From: a virus
Virus record (IMG/VR): IMGVR_UViG_3300037963_005719
Span: 16,201-45,692 of that record
Reading direction: 5' to 3' (one strand)
Length of the DNA stretch: 29,492 nucleotides
The notes beneath the pieces were generated by a model that worked only from the letters and a program-made list of their open reading frames with translations, made no database searches and was not told where the DNA came from. Positions 6,892 to 26,227 of the stretch are shown in pieces (positions within the stretch are counted from its first letter, which is position 1; the number at the start of each line of letters is the position of its first letter). Made by a program: the position numbers and the translations under genes.

Positions 6892-8298
6892 TTATATTTT
6901 TATATTTTGACAATAATGCCAAAAATCCTCTAACTCAGGATAAGTTTTTACAAAATTTGTACCTCTTCTTTCATCATGAGCTTTAAAAAACTTACCAAAA
7001 TTATATCTTTGATGTCTTAACTTTTCATCATCCTCTCTAGAAATCATCCAATCATATATTCTTTTAATTTTTTGAGTTTCTATATCAGAATACCCTACGT
7101 GTTTATGGTCAAATTTAGGAATACCTAAAAAATCTGTATATTGAGCAGTTTTGAAAACTTCTTTAGCCCATTTTTGAGGTAAAATCTGTACTGTTTGATG
7201 AGTAGGATATCTTAAATAAGAGGAATCCAAAAAGATCGCTGATGTCCAGTATCTATCAGTTGAAGCATATTCTTTTTTTAAGTCATATACTCCATCGATA
7301 AGTTTTTTATAACTTGGTACCGATAAAGCATTAAATGTAGACATAATCGTTAAGTTAACTTTAGGACATTTAGTCAATACTTTATTCATATTATCCCAAA
7401 AACGATTAAATTCTAATCCATTTCTTATATATTCAGCTTGTTCTCCCCATCCATCTACAGAAGTAAATATAATAAATTCATTAACTCGATCTTCATCTTC
7501 TATTCTATTTACTTTTTCTATAAATTTATCTAATAACGCATCTTGTATTCCTAAATTAGAATTAATAGCTAAGTTTAATTTACGGTTTGGGTTAGGTTCA
7601 TTAATAATATAATCTAAAACACCCCAAGTATCTTTTGATAATAAAGGTTCCCCGCCAGTAATTCTAAAAGTATGTAGATCTCGATATAAATCGGGCCACC
7701 ATTTCCAAAAAGCCTCTACATAAGGGTTATGTTCTCTATGATTGATAGGCATTTTTCCTTCTTTCCTTAAAACTTCCATATCATTGAAGCTATCCATAGT
7801 AGGATAAGCACCATATTTATTTGCTTCTTGTACCCATGAAGAAGAAAACGAAGGACCACAGTAAGAACATTTAAAATTACATCTATTAGAAAAAGCTACT
7901 TCAACATACTTAGGATTATAATCAGCTCTCCAGTCAGATGTTGCTATTTCATTGAAATGTGGTAAGGACCAGCTTTCATTTGACTTAAATACCCTATCTG
8001 AAAATCTATCTGAGTTATCTTCTACGTTCCAACAGTAATCACACTCAGCAGGTCTTTTTCCTTCAAGCATTTCTTTACGTTTCTTCTTTTTGAACCTAGT
8101 ATTATGGAGTGCAGAAGGATTTCTTTTAATTTCTTTTACTGGTATATGATGAGTTGAAGGGTGATGACAAGAATGTGTTTGTCCCATTTGTAAATGCATA
8201 GTAACTTGTGTCCATTTTGCTAAACACATACCACATCCTATTCCATCTAACTTTTTTTTAGTTTCTGCGTAGTGAGGATTATCAAACGTTATAGACAT
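6892..8298 (-). CDS. Radical SAM protein with N-terminal auxiliary cysteine cluster
   Basis: Cys 140, 144 and 147 form the CxxxCxxC motif (CNFKCSYC) that binds the SAM-cleaving 4Fe-4S cluster, and GGEP at 215-218 is the SAM-binding motif. The 468-residue length leaves an N-terminal extension with Cys 22, 25, 44, 86 and 89 (GCGMC, SCHHP, ECDYCW), a likely twitch/SPASM-like auxiliary cluster that in this family sits before rather than after the barrel. Radical SAM proteins of this type occur in phage and bacterial polysaccharide clusters and catalyse radical chemistry on peptides or sugars. It is 1 base from the LamG-like gene and 4 bases from the GT7-LamG gene. Substrate unknown; could modify a sugar or a protein side chain. 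Confidence 0.8.
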   Translation of the reverse strand: MSITFDNPHYAETKKKLDGIGCGMCLAKWTQVTMHLQMGQTHSCHHPSTHHIPVKEIKRNPSALHNTRFKKKKRKEMLEGKRPAECDYCWNVEDNSDRFSDRVFKSNESWSLPHFNEIATSDWRADYNPKYVEVAFSNRCNFKCSYCGPSFSSSWVQEANKYGAYPTMDSFNDMEVLRKEGKMPINHREHNPYVEAFWKWWPDLYRDLHTFRITGGEPLLSKDTWGVLDYIINEPNPNRKLNLAINSNLGIQDALLDKFIEKVNRIEDEDRVNEFIIFTSVDGWGEQAEYIRNGLEFNRFWDNMNKVLTKCPKVNLTIMSTFNALSVPSYKKLIDGVYDLKKEYASTDRYWTSAIFLDSSYLRYPTHQTVQILPQKWAKEVFKTAQYTDFLGIPKFDHKHVGYSDIETQKIKRIYDWMISREDDEKLRHQRYNFGKFFKAHDERRGTNFVKTYPELEDFWHYCQNIKI

Positions 8299-18568: not shown

Positions 18569-19054
18569 TTAAATATTTTCAGTTAATCCTACTCTATCTG
18601 CTCTAGTCAAGTGACAGTCTACTATTATTGAAACTGATTCACCTTTATCACTACCGTAATCACCTAAATTGTATGCTTCGTCTCTACCTACAAATAATTG
18701 ATTTTCTCTTACTGTATCTACTTCATAGTAATCTTCATGCCAAAATACTATATCTCCTACTTCAGGGACAACTGATGTAAGTTCTAAGTCTTTGCGTAAA
18801 AATGCAAATGAATTTTCTCTATTCATATCAGGACCTAAATCATCAACAGTTATTACTTGATCTCCTCTAGTAATAAGACAATTAAGTTTTACTGGTGAAA
18901 GCCATGATTTTTCTAAAGCTTCACCGTATATGTTTGTATTAACATCTTCTAGAGATATTTTGTAATATAGTATTTCTTGCTCAACTATATCACTTAATAA
19001 CTCTCTATTAATTTTAGTTAATAAATTAAAATCTCTTGTAGTTCCAAATAACAT
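18569..19054 (-). CDS. gp14: gp14-like neck protein (short)
   Basis: At 161 residues it is shorter than T4 gp14 (256). It shares the 'VPEVGDIVFWHEDYYEVDTV' stretch (P..GD.iyf....lFei..V in T4 gp14) and NSFAFLRKDL, plus the position between gp13 and the gp15-like gene. gp14 forms part of the head-tail connector together with gp13. The C-terminal half is beta-rich. It overlaps the stop of the small 100-residue gene by one base and precedes the gp15-like gene by 2 bases. Assignment is by motif and synteny. Confidence 0.65.
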   Translation of the reverse strand: MLFGTTRDFNLLTKINRELLSDIVEQEILYYKISLEDVNTNIYGEALEKSWLSPVKLNCLITRGDQVITVDDLGPDMNRENSFAFLRKDLELTSVVPEVGDIVFWHEDYYEVDTVRENQLFVGRDEAYNLGDYGSDKGESVSIIVDCHLTRADRVGLTENI

Positions 19055-19356
19055 TACTTCTCTTCTATTGTTTCTGTTCCTATTTCTACTTGGTTAATAA
19101 AACTATACTTACTTTCTGCATTACTTTTAAATGCATTATATGCTTCTTCAGGTGATTTCTGGGAGATAATTTTTACTTTAAAAGTAGAGCTTTTAGCTTC
19201 AGCATTTGCTCCTGCATTAGTAACTGTTAGAACTCCTGGGAGAGCTCTTAATACATCACCAAGTTTGTTAGCTTCTACTTCTCCGTAGATAACTTTCACC
19301 ATGGCCTCGTACGTTTTGAACTCGACCTCTGTCAATATTTGACTTAATTTTATCAT
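19054..19356 (-). CDS. Small hypothetical protein between gp13 and gp14, 100 aa
   Basis: Not recognised with confidence. It starts MIKLSQILTEVEF and has a ferredoxin-like alternation of helix and strand (VIYGEVEANKLGDVLRAL, PGVLTVTNAG, STFKVKIISQ, SPEEAYNAFKSNA, VEIGTETIEEK). I know similar short proteins from neck regions of marine T4-like phages only as hypothetical. Its start and stop overlap gp13 and gp14 by one base each, so it is translated with them. The N-terminal 'KLSxILxE' is similar to that of the 168-residue head-region protein, which suggests a shared leader or cleavage signal. Confidence 0.6.
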   Translation of the reverse strand: MIKLSQILTEVEFKTYEAMVKVIYGEVEANKLGDVLRALPGVLTVTNAGANAEAKSSTFKVKIISQKSPEEAYNAFKSNAESKYSFINQVEIGTETIEEK

Positions 19357-20580: not shown

Positions 20581-22179
20581 TTAGACTTGAGTTAAGTCAG
20601 AAATAAATACTTTACCGTAGAATTCAGGTCTAATGATCTTTTTAGCATATCGAGTCATTAATCCTTTTCTTGGAGTGAAGGTATCAGGATCGTATACTAG
20701 TGGAGTCATTAATAATGGTACGTAAGGAGCATAAACAGCACCGCATTCTAGGAATTGGCTTCCTCTATATCCCATTAACAAGATTTGCTCTGTCATATAA
20801 GGATTTTTGTAAACTTGGAATCTGTTATTTAAAGCACCAACTTTTTGTACACCCATTGCAAACTGATCTTGATCACCATTAGTGTTAGCAGCATATCCTG
20901 GAATAGATTCTAGAATAGTTGCAACTGATGGAGAACATACGATGAAGTTAGCACCACCTCTTAAAGTCTTCTGGTGAATTTTATTAGATACTTTTTGGAT
21001 TTTAGTTCCTAAAGTTTGGAACCATTGTCCTTGAGTATTATAAAAGTCAGAAGTAGAAGTTACGAATGCACTACCGTTCCATACTTTGTTGTTTTCTGCA
21101 GACCACTTTTCAGTAGTTTTTGCATTTAAGATTAACATATCAAGGATTTCTAAGTCGATTTCCATTGAGATGTATTCACTCAATAATGAAGTTAATTCAG
21201 CTTCAGCGTCGATTGAGTGATAAGCATTAAGATCCTGAGCGAACTCTGGAGTCCATTGTGCTTTTAACTTTCTAGTCTTAGCAACTACTGCCTCACTCTG
21301 TAATTGAACATCAATTTCAGGAATAGTGATAGAAGTATCTACTGCTGCAGAACCAGAAGCTTCGAAATCGCCTCTTGAACTGTCAGTTGGAGCTTGACTA
21401 TATTTTACTGAACCAGCAAATGCACCTGAAACAGGTATTGCATGTGAACCAGTAATTACGAAAGTTACATTATTTCCACTTACTGTAGTTAATTCAGGGT
21501 GTGAAGTAACATCAGTTGATGCAGATAATAATCTGAATGATCTAACAGCTTCTTTGTCGAAGTCTACTGAACTCATATCAACAACGTAAGTGTTGAATTG
21601 AGAAGGTATTAATTCGTCATTGTAGCCAATAGAAGAAGATGTTGGAGCGGATCCAGTATCTTGTGAAGCAACAGTTAAACTGTGCTCGTTAATAGAGTAT
21701 CCGAAGTTTCCAGCGCCGTAAAGACCACCAGATGCTTCAGTATCGATAGTCATCTTAGTTGATCCAGCAGTTACGTTACCGTACATGTTGTCTCCGTCAG
21801 TTCTAACTCCTTTAGAAGTTCCATATTTGAAATCTAGATAAAATACTAGACCAGATGGAAGGTTCATAGGTTGAACAGAAACGAAATCTTTAGCAACGAT
21901 CTGAGAGAATACTTTTCTTACTAACGGTAATGCTACACCAGCCCACTGTTCTCCAGCACCAGCTGTAAAGCCGACACCTCTTCCAGAAGTACCTGTTGAG
22001 TTAGCTTCAGCAACGATTTGCTTAGCTTGGTTCTCAAGTATCATAGCCATGTTAGCAGAATCTTTTTCTCCTAGACCTTCAAGAAGACCAGATTTACTCC
22101 ATTTGTCAGCTAATCTTCCTGCATCAGCTTGTAAGCTTTTGAAAGAATTTGAGCTTTCTAATAGGTTGTTAATTTCCAT
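20581..22179 (-). CDS. gp23: Major capsid protein gp23
   Basis: The 532-residue length is close to T4 gp23 (521). Characteristic parts are the N-terminal helical leader (LLESSNSFKSLQADAGRLAD), GVALPLVRKVFSQIVAKDFVSVQPMNLPSGLVFYLDFKYG (in T4: 'RRAIPNLIAFDICGVQPMNSPTGQVFALR' type), the middle AKTRKLKAQWTPEFAQDL (T4 'vka.tR.LKA.yt.ElaQDL'), and the C-terminal NFIVCSPSVATILESI and YVPLLMTPLVYDPDTFTPRKG. The leader is probably removed by gp21. Builds the HK97-fold head lattice. No clear Shine-Dalgarno motif is seen before the ATG; A/T tracts are. Confidence 0.92.
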   Translation of the reverse strand: MEINNLLESSNSFKSLQADAGRLADKWSKSGLLEGLGEKDSANMAMILENQAKQIVAEANSTGTSGRGVGFTAGAGEQWAGVALPLVRKVFSQIVAKDFVSVQPMNLPSGLVFYLDFKYGTSKGVRTDGDNMYGNVTAGSTKMTIDTEASGGLYGAGNFGYSINEHSLTVASQDTGSAPTSSSIGYNDELIPSQFNTYVVDMSSVDFDKEAVRSFRLLSASTDVTSHPELTTVSGNNVTFVITGSHAIPVSGAFAGSVKYSQAPTDSSRGDFEASGSAAVDTSITIPEIDVQLQSEAVVAKTRKLKAQWTPEFAQDLNAYHSIDAEAELTSLLSEYISMEIDLEILDMLILNAKTTEKWSAENNKVWNGSAFVTSTSDFYNTQGQWFQTLGTKIQKVSNKIHQKTLRGGANFIVCSPSVATILESIPGYAANTNGDQDQFAMGVQKVGALNNRFQVYKNPYMTEQILLMGYRGSQFLECGAVYAPYVPLLMTPLVYDPDTFTPRKGLMTRYAKKIIRPEFYGKVFISDLTQV

Positions 22180-22208: not shown

Positions 22209-23321
22209 TTAAATTATTCCAGCTAATTTTTGCATTCTACGAACTGCATCATTTGCTTCTGTAATAACTTCTGGTTTTTTAGCTGTTGTACCAGTAGCTT
22301 TTGAAGCCATTCCTTTAGACTCTTTAATAGAGTTTGTAGGTTTAGCTATATTATCAGCAACAGTTTCGTAAACGAGTTTAACTTCTTTTACTGTTTCTGC
22401 TTTGTCAAACGCTGCGATAACGTTTACTTTTTGAGATTCAGTTAAGTTGTTAGACTTAAAGATTTTGTTGACATAAAGTAATTTAGAATTTAAAGTATTA
22501 ACTTCTGATAGTTGAGCTTTTAAATCATTAATAGTTTGTAATGCTTCGTTTAACTCATTATCTTCGTTAACTTCTTCTTCATCCATCTTATCTTTTTTGT
22601 CAGCTTCAGTTACTTCTTCTTCATTGACTTCTTCGTTCTTATCATCGTCTTCCTTTGCAGGAGCTTCTGATAATTCCGCTTCAGCAACTTCTGAAGTAGC
22701 TTCTAGTTCTTTTAGTAGTTCCTCAAGGTCGATTTCTTCTTCGTCAGCTGGTCCGTCGATTGCTCCGTCAATTGGTGCATCTCCGCCATCTAAGTCAGCG
22801 CCCATGTCCTCTTCGTCACCACCTACTTCTTGAGAAATAAGGTCTCTGATTACATCTTTAAGGTCAGATAAATTCATATCTTTTACTTCGATGTCTTCAT
22901 CAGCCTCTTCTTCTCCGTCAGCATCATGATCTTCTGCTTCAGCGTCGTCCTCTGATTCTTCAGAGTCATCCTCAGCTTCTTCCATTGCTTCTTCCTCTTC
23001 TCCGTGTGCAGCTTCGTCTTTTTTCTTATCATGCATTCCTTCGTTTTTATCTTCGTCGTCCTGCATCGCTTCTTTGACTTCTTCAGTTTCGTTTACTTCC
23101 TCAGTTGATTCTTCAACTTTCTCTTCACTTACTTCTTCTTCGTTTACTACTTCTTCTTCGTTTACTTTGGAATCATCCATTTCTTGAAGTTTAGCAGCTA
23201 ACATATCTTTTAAGTGTGGAGTTAACGACTCTTCTAAAGCTTCTTTAGCGTTTGCGATAGCGGCTTCACGAACAGATTTAGCTTCAGCAATAGCTTGCTT
23301 AAAAAGTTCTTTATTTGCCAT
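22209..23321 (-). CDS. gp22: Prohead core scaffold gp22
   Basis: The 370-residue protein is extremely acidic from about residue 45 to 260 (runs of E and D, repeated 'EEVNE' units). A helical C-terminal part contains INDLKAQLSEVNTLNSKLLY, VNKIFKSNNLTESQKVNVI and FDKAETVKEVKLVYETV, the arrangement found in T4-type gp22 scaffolds. It ends AVRRMQKLAGII, a tail seen in other phage scaffold proteins. It would fill the prohead and be cut up by gp21 before DNA packaging. It lies between a small hydrophobic protein and gp23 as expected. The acidic stretch produces an artefactual serine-rich frame on the other strand. Confidence 0.82.
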   Translation of the reverse strand: MANKELFKQAIAEAKSVREAAIANAKEALEESLTPHLKDMLAAKLQEMDDSKVNEEEVVNEEEVSEEKVEESTEEVNETEEVKEAMQDDEDKNEGMHDKKKDEAAHGEEEEAMEEAEDDSEESEDDAEAEDHDADGEEEADEDIEVKDMNLSDLKDVIRDLISQEVGGDEEDMGADLDGGDAPIDGAIDGPADEEEIDLEELLKELEATSEVAEAELSEAPAKEDDDKNEEVNEEEVTEADKKDKMDEEEVNEDNELNEALQTINDLKAQLSEVNTLNSKLLYVNKIFKSNNLTESQKVNVIAAFDKAETVKEVKLVYETVADNIAKPTNSIKESKGMASKATGTTAKKPEVITEANDAVRRMQKLAGII

Positions 23322-23444: not shown

Positions 23445-23951
23445 TTATATTGCTGCTGCAACTTCTGCACCAATATTAGCTATATCTCTACCTTTAAGTG
23501 CGGCTTTAAGTCCTGATGCTGCACCTGAAGCTATTTTAGCACCTTTCATTGCTTTATATGCTCCTACTCCGGCTGCAGTTCCTAATCCTGCTAATATTGC
23601 TATAAATAAACCTTTAGCAACCATTTGTCTTTTGGCTTCATCTTTTACAAAAGGAGATATAACTCCAGCTAATACACTTACTATATTTTTTTCGTTACCA
23701 TGAGCCCATTTATGAATAGCATCTAATTTATTACCGGTTTTTTCTAAACCCATTTTTCTAGCTGCTCTAGCTCCATATTTACCTAATAAATCTAAAACCG
23801 TATTAGAAGCAAGTGCCCATCCTAATAATGCTACTGCAGTAAATGCTTCGTTTAATTCACCATCGTCAGCTAATTCTTTATCTATTTCTTTTTTAAATAA
23901 ATTAGCTAGCTGTTGTTCGTCGCTTTCTAGAAGTATTGACGATAGTTTCAT
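23445..23951 (-). CDS. Small Gly/Ala-rich hydrophobic head-region protein, 168 aa
   Basis: No family recognised. After an N-terminal hydrophilic part (MKLSSILLESDEQQ ... KEIDKELADDGELNE) there are hydrophobic stretches at about 36-56 (AFTAVALLGWALASNTVLDL), 88-101 and 111-133 (VAKGLFIAILAGLGTAAGVG). The C-terminus is rich in glycine, alanine and lysine (KGAKIASGAASGLKAALKG). This is a membrane-active or amphipathic profile. It occupies the place of T4 prohead core genes 67/68, between protease and scaffold. It may be an internal head protein released on injection, or a prohead membrane anchor. The short leader ILLE resembles gp21 cleavage contexts (LxE). Confidence 0.5.
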   Translation of the reverse strand: MKLSSILLESDEQQLANLFKKEIDKELADDGELNEAFTAVALLGWALASNTVLDLLGKYGARAARKMGLEKTGNKLDAIHKWAHGNEKNIVSVLAGVISPFVKDEAKRQMVAKGLFIAILAGLGTAAGVGAYKAMKGAKIASGAASGLKAALKGRDIANIGAEVAAAI

Positions 23952-23953
23952 AA

Positions 23954-24532
23954 TTATGCTCTTAAAATATCATTAATAATACCATCTACAATAGTTAATT
24001 GAGATACTTTCTTTTTACCTTCATTTAATGATATAGGATTCATAAATGCTCCATGAGTAGAAGGATTAGATACAAAATCCCAACATACTAATTCGAAATC
24101 ATCTTGAACTTCTAATGTTCCTTCATTTGTTTGTTGTACTGATCCTGTACCTCTAGATGAGATACCTATAGTATGGCCAGCTTTTATAATTTCTTTTACA
24201 ATATTACCAGCAGGAGTATTTAATAGCTCTACTTTACCCATTAGGTCGTTACCGTCCCAATATAAGTCTTTTACTATATGAGAAGCATTTTTTAATGACA
24301 CTACAGGAGTTTCAGGATGATCAAGTTCTCCAAAAGCATTTCCTCTTTTTACAAACTCTTCCATATACTTTTTAGCCTCTCTTTGTAATAGAGCTTTACT
24401 ATAAACTCTACCGTTTTGGTTTTCAGCAGTTGCTCTTTGCATAACTCCTTCAACCTCGAATACTCCAGGTCTTCCTTTTGCTTCTCTTAAGGTAGGTTTA
24501 AATGGTGTTACGTCTACTAATAATTGTGCCAT
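23954..24532 (-). CDS. gp21: Prohead protease gp21
   Basis: The 192-residue protein contains NQNGRVYSKALLQREAKKY, GELDHPE (catalytic His 72), GISSRGTGSV (catalytic Ser, 125 or 126) and DFELVCWDFVSNPS (Asp 152), the order seen in T4-type prohead proteases (family S80, assemblin-like fold). It cuts scaffold and capsid leaders at (L/I)xE sites during head maturation. It stands 2 bases after the 168-residue gene's ATG side and 1 base from the large core gene upstream, in the standard region before gp22. Confidence 0.9.
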   Translation of the reverse strand: MAQLLVDVTPFKPTLREAKGRPGVFEVEGVMQRATAENQNGRVYSKALLQREAKKYMEEFVKRGNAFGELDHPETPVVSLKNASHIVKDLYWDGNDLMGKVELLNTPAGNIVKEIIKAGHTIGISSRGTGSVQQTNEGTLEVQDDFELVCWDFVSNPSTHGAFMNPISLNEGKKKVSQLTIVDGIINDILRA

Positions 24533-25996: not shown

Positions 25997-26227
25997 CTAT
26001 AAATAGTCAAATCCTTTAGTATGTGATGGCCGTTTTGGACGGCTTAATTTTTTAAAACCAAGCTTCTTAGATGCTTTTGTTGCTCTAGAGCTCTTACCAA
26101 ATGCAAACGGTGTTGCATATTGTGCACCAGAACCAGGAGTAAATGTTGCTGTTCCTCCAGTAACATTAGCTTCGTCTAATTCTTGAAGCACTTCTCTTAC
26201 TAAGTCAACTAATTGTGATCTTTTCAT
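25997..26227 (-). CDS. Small basic protein, 76 aa
   Basis: Not recognised. An N-terminal amphipathic helix (MKRSQLVDLVREVLQELDEA) of a kind often seen at the start of T4-like head-region proteins is followed by a Gly/Thr-rich linker (NVTGGTATFTPGSGAQYATP). A very basic tail comes after it (KASKKLGFKKLSRPKRPSH). The helix ends in 'LQELDE', which may be a protease site, so the mature part could be the basic linker and tail, fit to bind DNA inside the head. The stop lies in a TATTTATA motif immediately before the next gene. The start overlaps the 284-residue gene by 4 bases. Confidence 0.55.
   Translation of the reverse strand: MKRSQLVDLVREVLQELDEANVTGGTATFTPGSGAQYATPFAFGKSSRATKASKKLGFKKLSRPKRPSHTKGFDYL
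25998..26006 (-). promoter_or_regulatory. CTATTTATA motif before the 486-aa gene
   Basis: On the minus strand GACTATTTATAGAC directly precedes the ATG, sharing GACTATTTATA with the sites before the portal and gp13 genes. Here only 3 bases separate the motif from ATG and TAAACGT is absent, so if it is a promoter the transcript would start within the coding sequence. Confidence 0.25.

Follow-up and report, generated by a model that had tools for sequence, protein, structure and literature searches.

Genomic context and layout of P0001

The DNA studied here (29,492 nucleotides, hereafter the window) is a portion of a 50,958-nt viral record and belongs to a T4-like phage, in which the gene for a 168-aa protein, P0001, lies between the gp21 prohead protease and a gene in scaffold position (Table 1). 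The open reading frame is real: its translation runs on the minus strand from 23951 to 23445, just where the sequence-only reading had placed it, and the plus strand of the same interval is interrupted by stops throughout in the same frame. The P0001 gene begins 2 nt past the gp21 stop codon, with the scaffold-position gene and then gp23 beyond it. The portal gene of the window is also clear by Pfam, and searches of Pfam and profile families gave no significant family match for the acidic scaffold. The T4 gene order served for comparison. Among isolated phages, Flavobacterium phage immuto comes nearest in its gp21, and this kinship suggests a host among the Bacteroidota.

Table 1. Features of the P0001 gene and of neighbouring head genes in window coordinates (arrows mark predicted cuts; KD, Kyte-Doolittle).
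Feature	Position	Strand	Basis
P0001 gene, predicted internal head protein	23445..23951	-	open frame, translation; corresponding position in related contigs
Leader MKLSSILLE (1-9), tag resembling a capsid-targeting sequence, with a cut predicted behind E9	23925..23951	-	E9 invariant in 24 aligned members; leader type at 48/1340 ORF N-termini
Acidic pro-region, residues 10-35	23847..23924	-	residues 1-35 net -6; pro-region negative in 63/63 members
Further putative gp21 site at residues 33-36, LNE↓A (ELNE↓A, 32-36)	23844..23855	-	[LIVMF]xE near border across family
Mature body of residues 36-168, net charge +10, helical throughout by prediction	23448..23846	-	family profile, alignment A6; AlphaFold2 at low confidence (pLDDT 55.8)
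Hydrophobic stretch 1, residues 36-57	23781..23846	-	KD up to 1.48; family median 1.67
Motif HKWAHGNE, residues 80-87, H-x-x-E core H84/E87	23691..23714	-	both in columns conserved to at least 90%, 61 members
Hydrophobic stretch 2, residues about 109-136	23544..23627	-	KD up to 1.81 (residues 109-131)
Gly/Ala/Lys-rich tail, residues 137-168	23448..23543	-	translation
gp21 prohead protease, predicted processing enzyme	23954..24532	-	PF03420 Peptidase_S77, E 2.7e-33; 73.5% identity to immuto gp21
gp22-position acidic scaffold, right border of cargo slot	22209..23321	-	position and sequence; immuto counterpart gp067
Scaffold C-terminal RRMQKLAGII, motif reused near the N-terminus of a few tagged proteins elsewhere	22212..22241	-	pattern count
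gp23 major capsid protein, processing motif IVAE↓A	20581..22179	-	PF07068, 3.8e-83; motif in 65/65 distinct N-termini
100-aa protein with related leader MIKLSQILTE↓V	19054..19356	-	ORF list, sequence
76-aa protein with MKKSEL-type leader (MKRSQLVDLVREVLQELDE↓A)	25997..26227	-	ORF list, sequence

P0001 can be divided into a short leader, an acidic pro-region and a basic body that ends in a Gly-Ala-Lys tail, the latter as previously described. Two positions resemble prohead-protease sites. The first, ILLE↓S (residues 6-10), closes the leader. The second, LNE↓A (residues 33-36), had been overlooked and is the better placed, as ELNE↓A stands directly before the first hydrophobic stretch and parts the acidic pro-region (net -6) from the basic body (+10). 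A charge split of this size between front and body (difference 16) was equalled in 125 of 20,000 shuffles.

Three hydrophobic stretches had been proposed, yet they are not equal on the Kyte-Doolittle scale (19-residue window): two are of membrane type (KD 1.48 and 1.81), whereas the third, at residues ~88-102, is weak and stays below 1.0 in any window. Of the remaining head-region proteins in the window, the nine that were measured peak at 0.19-1.25. By itself the P0001 peak is unremarkable, because composition explains it (when its residues were shuffled 2000 times, 494 shuffles reached it), and the case for the hydrophobic segments lies in their recurrence across the protein family described below. 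There, a KD of at least 1.6 is reached by 32 of 62 members in stretch 1 and by 39 of 62 in stretch 2, so that in some members the stretches may not be transmembrane but amphipathic. Two AlphaFold2 runs gave all-helical but weak models (pLDDT 53.9 and 55.8), and the fold therefore lends a membrane role no support; the alignment given to AlphaFold2 (A6) comprises 61 of the 63 family bodies (without L171 and Mel-JY01). In A6 the H-x-x-E of the middle helix is nearly invariant, with H-x-x-H in some distant members; metal binding, pH sensing or packing are conceivable reasons.

P0001 founds a new protein family

By profile similarity, P0001 belongs to a new family of 63 members that includes proteins of the phages immuto and Mel-JY01; all other relatives stem from metagenomic viral contigs. 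The family grew from six close relatives to 36 loci and, through a profile, further scans and a body-only profile, to 63 full-length members. A full-length iterative profile search drifted to proteins sharing only the leader (218 rows) and was replaced by a search with bodies only (64 rows), from which the 73-aa fragment L090 was removed; the short-bodied L171 was further removed for hydrophobicity counts and the tree, leaving 62. As far as each of them reaches, the 36 loci have a matched gene order (portal, 26224-type, 25997-type, 24534-type, gp21, P0001 gene, scaffold, gp23), which is no unbiased count of conservation since the loci were picked by their P0001-type gene. Both isolate members, immuto gp095 (YP_010114588.1; profile E 1.7e-19) and WWT39316.1 of Microcystis phage Mel-JY01 (profile E 9.5e-10), are annotated as hypothetical; their homologous bodies lie at another genome place behind a different leader and share the site before the first hydrophobic stretch, the predicted cut in gp095 being GQLSE↓AIVAT. 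The family evolves faster than gp21 (51-62% versus 78-93% identity).

Neither for P0001 nor for its family did Pfam or PHROGs yield a usable match, PADLOC gave no match for P0001 or the family members tested, and the best hit among the sequences of solved structures in the PDB was unrelated (0.26). Two short patterns run against the GTDB bacterial and archaeal genome contigs returned 13 matches, none of them a relative. When P0001 was compared by tblastn with 50,697 phage records including T4 (E up to 10), the matches were confined to four entries of immuto and a single Vibrio phage; we regard the latter (GR7B, E = 1) as a chance match, located within a 793-aa protein that has no head genes nearby over the stretch viewed. 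Also dropped were the weak matches to Pfam Gate (17 of 24 members, best only 0.0023), TA_inhibitor (0.0014, below its own cut-off, in one distant member), Phage_holin_6_1 (0.013 in 1 of 24 members, P0001 itself being without a holin match), ARM_LIN and phrog_5108 (11 of 24 members, best 0.029). Among the PMC papers searched, none was found that contains three leader strings, QKLAGII, KWAHNNE or Mel-JY01, a negative result that applies to those strings there.

A second site and a charge plan shared by the family

Thirty seed members had their bodies cut at the motif and were therefore left out of the second-site counts. In all 33 members added by HMM, [LIVMF]xE falls at most 4 residues from the border between pro-region and body. 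Eighteen distinct members were later reached by the unbiased route of gp21 neighbourhoods, and 16 of them have the full motif and all 18 the Glu, the hydrophobic P3 residue missing in two; control offsets in the same proteins ranged from 0/63 to 16/36 motif matches. Across 63 of 63 members the pro-region is net negative (-1 to -30) and the body net positive (+3 to +18), with the border at the motif; for the first 26 members these ranges had been -4 to -13 and +6 to +18. The second-site motif fits the specificity expected of the phages' own gp21, because [VI]xE occupies the T4-type position in every one of their 65 distinct gp23 N-termini. While the two-site architecture can be read directly from the family's sequences, the predicted cutting by gp21 at E9 and E35 is supported by the conservation of the motifs.

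The plan of acidic mask and basic body is not general, as a family of the immuto gp092 type is tagged, of membrane type and equipped with an LxE-like site, yet has an acidic body (-4 to -6). Gly-rich proteins of this type, with an FDLKKFL leader and the LxE-like site before the hydrophobic part, were seen at L147:5450-5998, L173:3404-3967 and L185:4001-4564.

The interval between gp21 and scaffold is a variable cargo slot

We surveyed this interval in 80 relatives chosen by gp21 alone (82-94% identity, the best 80 of 376), of which 66 had it complete. The P0001 family occupies 29 of these 66 intervals and a 284-aa membrane-type protein, with a leader mostly the same as that of P0001, another seven. 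Fourteen have other content, namely a CAAHVV-motif protein only (eight), FDLKKFL-tagged cargo (three) or something else (three, among them L281, whose protein belongs to the CAAHVV family by blastp), and in 16 there is nothing of at least 40 aa. Four of the 14 open intervals contain the P0001 family. The three closest gp21 relatives among these best 80 of 376 (L244-L246, 93.8-94.3%) have an empty slot, and the next one (L247, 93.2%) a filled slot. The interval is thus a variable cargo slot, and the sequence-only reading, which had called a protein of this kind unexpected at this position, holds in part only.

The first genes of the 50 filled slots have a leader of the MKLS (28), FDLRKFL (15) or MKKSQL (4) class in 47 cases, and all 28 MKLS-led ones belong to either the P0001 or the 284-aa family. 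At L317, the exact MKLSSILLE of the window heads a 284-aa protein (front -8, body +10), and an acidic/basic split like that of P0001 was present in all five members of the 284-aa family that were measured. Kinship between the two families was not detected by hhalign (probability 0.3%, from a shallow alignment), and a profile of the 284-aa family, run against 16 records, produced one marginal, leader-only match (0.005). That different cargo is exchanged behind one leader type at one genome place is hence directly visible in the sequences.

Absence of the family extends to longer records. Five of 14 long records have a member and nine have none at E<=0.01 (including records of 191, 167, 162 and 154 kb), although any of the 14 may be a fragment. 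Six of the searched viral records of 114-191 kb have no member at E<=0.01, nor does the 60.8-kb record of one of the ~94% gp21 relatives.

Leaders behave as separable tags

The fetched loci contain 1340 distinct plus-strand ORFs that are 100 aa or longer. Of their N-termini, 48 carry the MKLSxILLE-type pattern (0.08 expected), compared with 12 internal occurrences over 382,008 positions. These 48 fall into eight clusters without blastp kinship, a fairer count than 48 itself because the loci had been fetched for the P0001 family, which supplies 34 of them. MKLSSILLE is, by its distribution, an N-terminal tag type common to other protein families. Another leader class, MENxFDLKKFLVENKLTxNSRxL, was located at 210 viral loci; 80 of these yielded 61 distinct proteins, and the 59 over 60 aa form 30 blastp clusters, with truly unrelated bodies fewer than 30 because two clusters belong to the P0001 family by profile. 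The same classes of leader also head many proteins without an evident membrane character. In the window itself, MKLS-type and MKKSEL-type leaders are present; leader model A3 matched nothing in the window's own record.

Leaders have been swapped between orthologous bodies, as direct comparison of the sequences reveals. The best tree of 62 bodies (several long branches, deep order unsure; labels of L139 and L163 hand-set to FDLKKFL) has 8 leader changes, where five labels require a minimum of 4. With starred support, L031 is nested in the MKLS clade despite its FDLKKFL-class leader, and L068 and immuto gp095 have a common body but different leaders. A third leader class resembles the end of the scaffold: an RMQKLAGII-type pattern scanned over 1953 ORFs gave 38 matches, 35 at scaffold-type C-termini, three near an N-terminus (one of them in the family member L142) and none internal, hinting that leader tags and the scaffold tail bind the same partner.

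Discussion

We consider P0001 an accessory, capsid-targeted, gp21-processed and injected membrane-type protein, that is, a variant of the T4 system of internal proteins (IPs) and capsid-targeting sequences (CTS), and assign this reading a probability of about 0.6. Its parts do not all share this standing. Packaging and processing are quite probable. A gp21 cut behind the ILLE leader and packaging in the head had both been proposed from the sequence, and the motifs now lend them support: E9 is invariant in 24 members, the gp23 cut motif [V/I]xE is found in 65 of 65 N-termini, and the leader type is almost restricted to N-termini, spans eight clusters and has been swapped between orthologues. 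Whether the body acts in a membrane is, by our estimate, an even call, and a purpose in exclusion or counter-defence is a tentative suggestion drawn solely from analogy and from the accessory distribution.

In the passages of the T4 literature cited here, IP leaders of 10-19 residues target proteins to the core, the IPIII CTS having 10 residues and its processing being governed by residues 8 and 10, where a change at position 10 reportedly stops cutting and leaves targeting intact; IPs are basic, present in ~300 copies each, in many cases ejected, and dispensable on standard hosts, and IPIII influences head assembly (PMC9026906). GmrSD restriction enzymes are blocked by Ip1, Ip2 and Ip3, each acting on different ones, and the signal sequence has allowed many ip genes to be recognised (PMC12373910). 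Within the scope of these sources, P0001 resembles IPI, IPII, IPIII and Alt in that its N-terminus bears a short leader closed by a gp21-type site, and T4 CTS cargo in that the leader is common to dissimilar proteins and the cargo accessory and variable (PMC9026906, PMC12373910, PMC3012670). Like the IPs, it would be basic when mature (+10; body positive in 63 of 63 members). Of T4-type CTS features we thus find the shared leader, its hydrophobic-x-Glu end, the basic mature protein and the accessory, variable cargo. Unlike the IPs and Alt, the P0001 family has an extra acidic pro-region, a second site, a membrane-type body and several leader classes, and the P0001 gene lies between gp21 and scaffold; homology to IPI, IPII, IPIII or Alt was not found by the tblastn search of phage records including T4. 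Prohead-protease substrates of the giant phage SPN3US, as far as the cited passages go, likewise carry propeptides, some with several cut motifs, that are removed in maturation, although the motif there is AxE and not the hydrophobic-x-Glu of P0001 (PMC5694885, PMC10052503).

In the mechanism that we propose, the first nine residues would act like a T4 CTS and dock the protein to the prohead core. As the conserved motifs suggest, gp21 would then cut after E9 and E35 and take off the acidic pro-region, which during assembly may hold the basic, hydrophobic body soluble and harmless. Some 133 residues would remain in the head with the DNA and be ejected together with it. In the last and weaker step, the body may insert in, or lie on, the inner membrane via its two hydrophobic helices and act early. 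Its target would most likely be a competing phage or a defence of the host, and a role as an essential DNA channel is less likely.

Such a channel, also raised by the sequence-only reading, in which the packaged body would be ejected first and form an inner-membrane pore for genome entry in the manner of the internal proteins of short-tailed phages, appears improbable to us. The two hydrophobic stretches and the basic body would suit it, and ejection proteins of the P22 gp7/16/20 type are, like P0001 in its candidate role, packed in the head and act on the envelope after ejection. Podovirus ejection proteins form a conduit, however, while the P0001 gene is missing in close relatives: the slot is empty in the three closest by gp21 (~94%, among the best 80 of 376), and no family member was detected in the 60.8-kb record of one of them or in nine of 14 longer records (E<=0.01; possibly fragments). 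This weakens the channel reading, as an essential channel should resist free loss or replacement. Then again, since the apparently unrelated 284-aa membrane-type family, built on the same plan, takes the place of the P0001 family in 7 of 66 slots, a stand-in protein could serve where the latter is missing.

The other serious rival, to which we give a similarly low chance, is a prohead membrane anchor, whose leader and acidic region would bind the core while the body sits in the host membrane, until the gp21 cut at E35 frees the prohead; the body would then be left behind and not enter the virion. According to the passages cited, T4 proheads begin at the inner membrane and are released from it once gp21 proteolysis occurs (PMC9026906), and SPN3US proheads without protease remain membrane-bound (PMC10052503). 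The E35 site, moreover, falls precisely where the presumed core-binding part meets the hydrophobic part. Against an anchor speak the gene's absence from some close relatives that share these head genes, and the leader classes, which also head many proteins not evidently membrane-type.

We likewise doubt that P0001 is a soluble core or scaffold helper like T4 gp67/gp68 or IPIII, with hydrophobic helices that pack on core proteins and not on membranes. This would agree with the position in the core gene cluster, with the effect of T4 IPIII on head assembly (in the cited passages of PMC9026906) and with hydrophobicity below 1.6 in part of the family, but disagrees with divergence faster than that of gp21, with replacement by other cargo and with the empty slots. 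A holin or other lysis protein is very unlikely: P0001 is small, hydrophobic and basic, and Phage_holin_6_1 matched one of 24 members at 0.013, but this is the best holin match in Pfam and none lies above cut-off, and the acidic pro-region with two conserved prohead-protease-type motifs, the leader common to other families, the head-gene neighbours and the tagged tandem copies in relatives all speak against it.

Extending the reading of P0001 as an injected, gp21-processed protein, we put forward a broader idea, which we would not yet favour: T4-like phages of Bacteroidota, together with one of a cyanobacterium, may deliver masked membrane proteins, with at least two apparently unrelated bodies following one plan of interchangeable leader, acidic mask, prohead-protease site and basic hydrophobic body. 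Head maturation would unmask these proteins within the capsid, and they would be injected with the DNA for action at the inner membrane, where they would serve entry, exclusion or the suppression of defences. One class of leader would copy the C-terminus of the scaffold, which would explain how the tags find the core. If right, the leader makes the injected repertoire of a marine and freshwater phage group readable from sequence (210 loci for one tag class), suggests protease-activated membrane effectors within a capsid, and proposes that one tag mimics the scaffold tail. The natural leader swaps, for their part, tell the address from the cargo.

Other tagged genes and neighbouring reading frames

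Immuto-like phages carry tandem leader-tagged genes (L052-L131, e.g. L059:2404-4981, L075:3001-3840 and L068:2274-3689), with three P0001-family paralogues in a row at L059; such arrays would amount to a catalogue of predicted injected proteins. Copies of the scaffold C-terminal RMQKLAGII occur in N-terminal segments at L142:1266-1850, L161:5278-5733 and L164:5075-5440. A 136-aa protein that follows a family member at L249:5110-5520 has a MIKFLDLLLE leader and an HEHTH motif, matches DUF3920 and a zincin of Pfam weakly without reaching the cut-off in either case, and is possibly a packaged metalloprotease. Proteins of 146-147 aa with a MISLYNILKE-like leader (L075:2558-3001, L059:1964-2404, L008:9935-10375) contain GEGDYGAVF, which we take to be a kinase-like pattern; the two that were scanned against Pfam, from L075 and L059, gave no match. 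Immuto gp077 (L045:1960-2961), annotated as cob(I)alamin adenosyltransferase, begins with an FDLKKFL-class tag and may for this reason be head cargo. In the window itself, a 468-aa ORF at 6892-8298 carries CNFKCSYCG, presumably a radical-SAM-like motif, and lies among glycosyltransferase-looking ORFs beside the structural genes.
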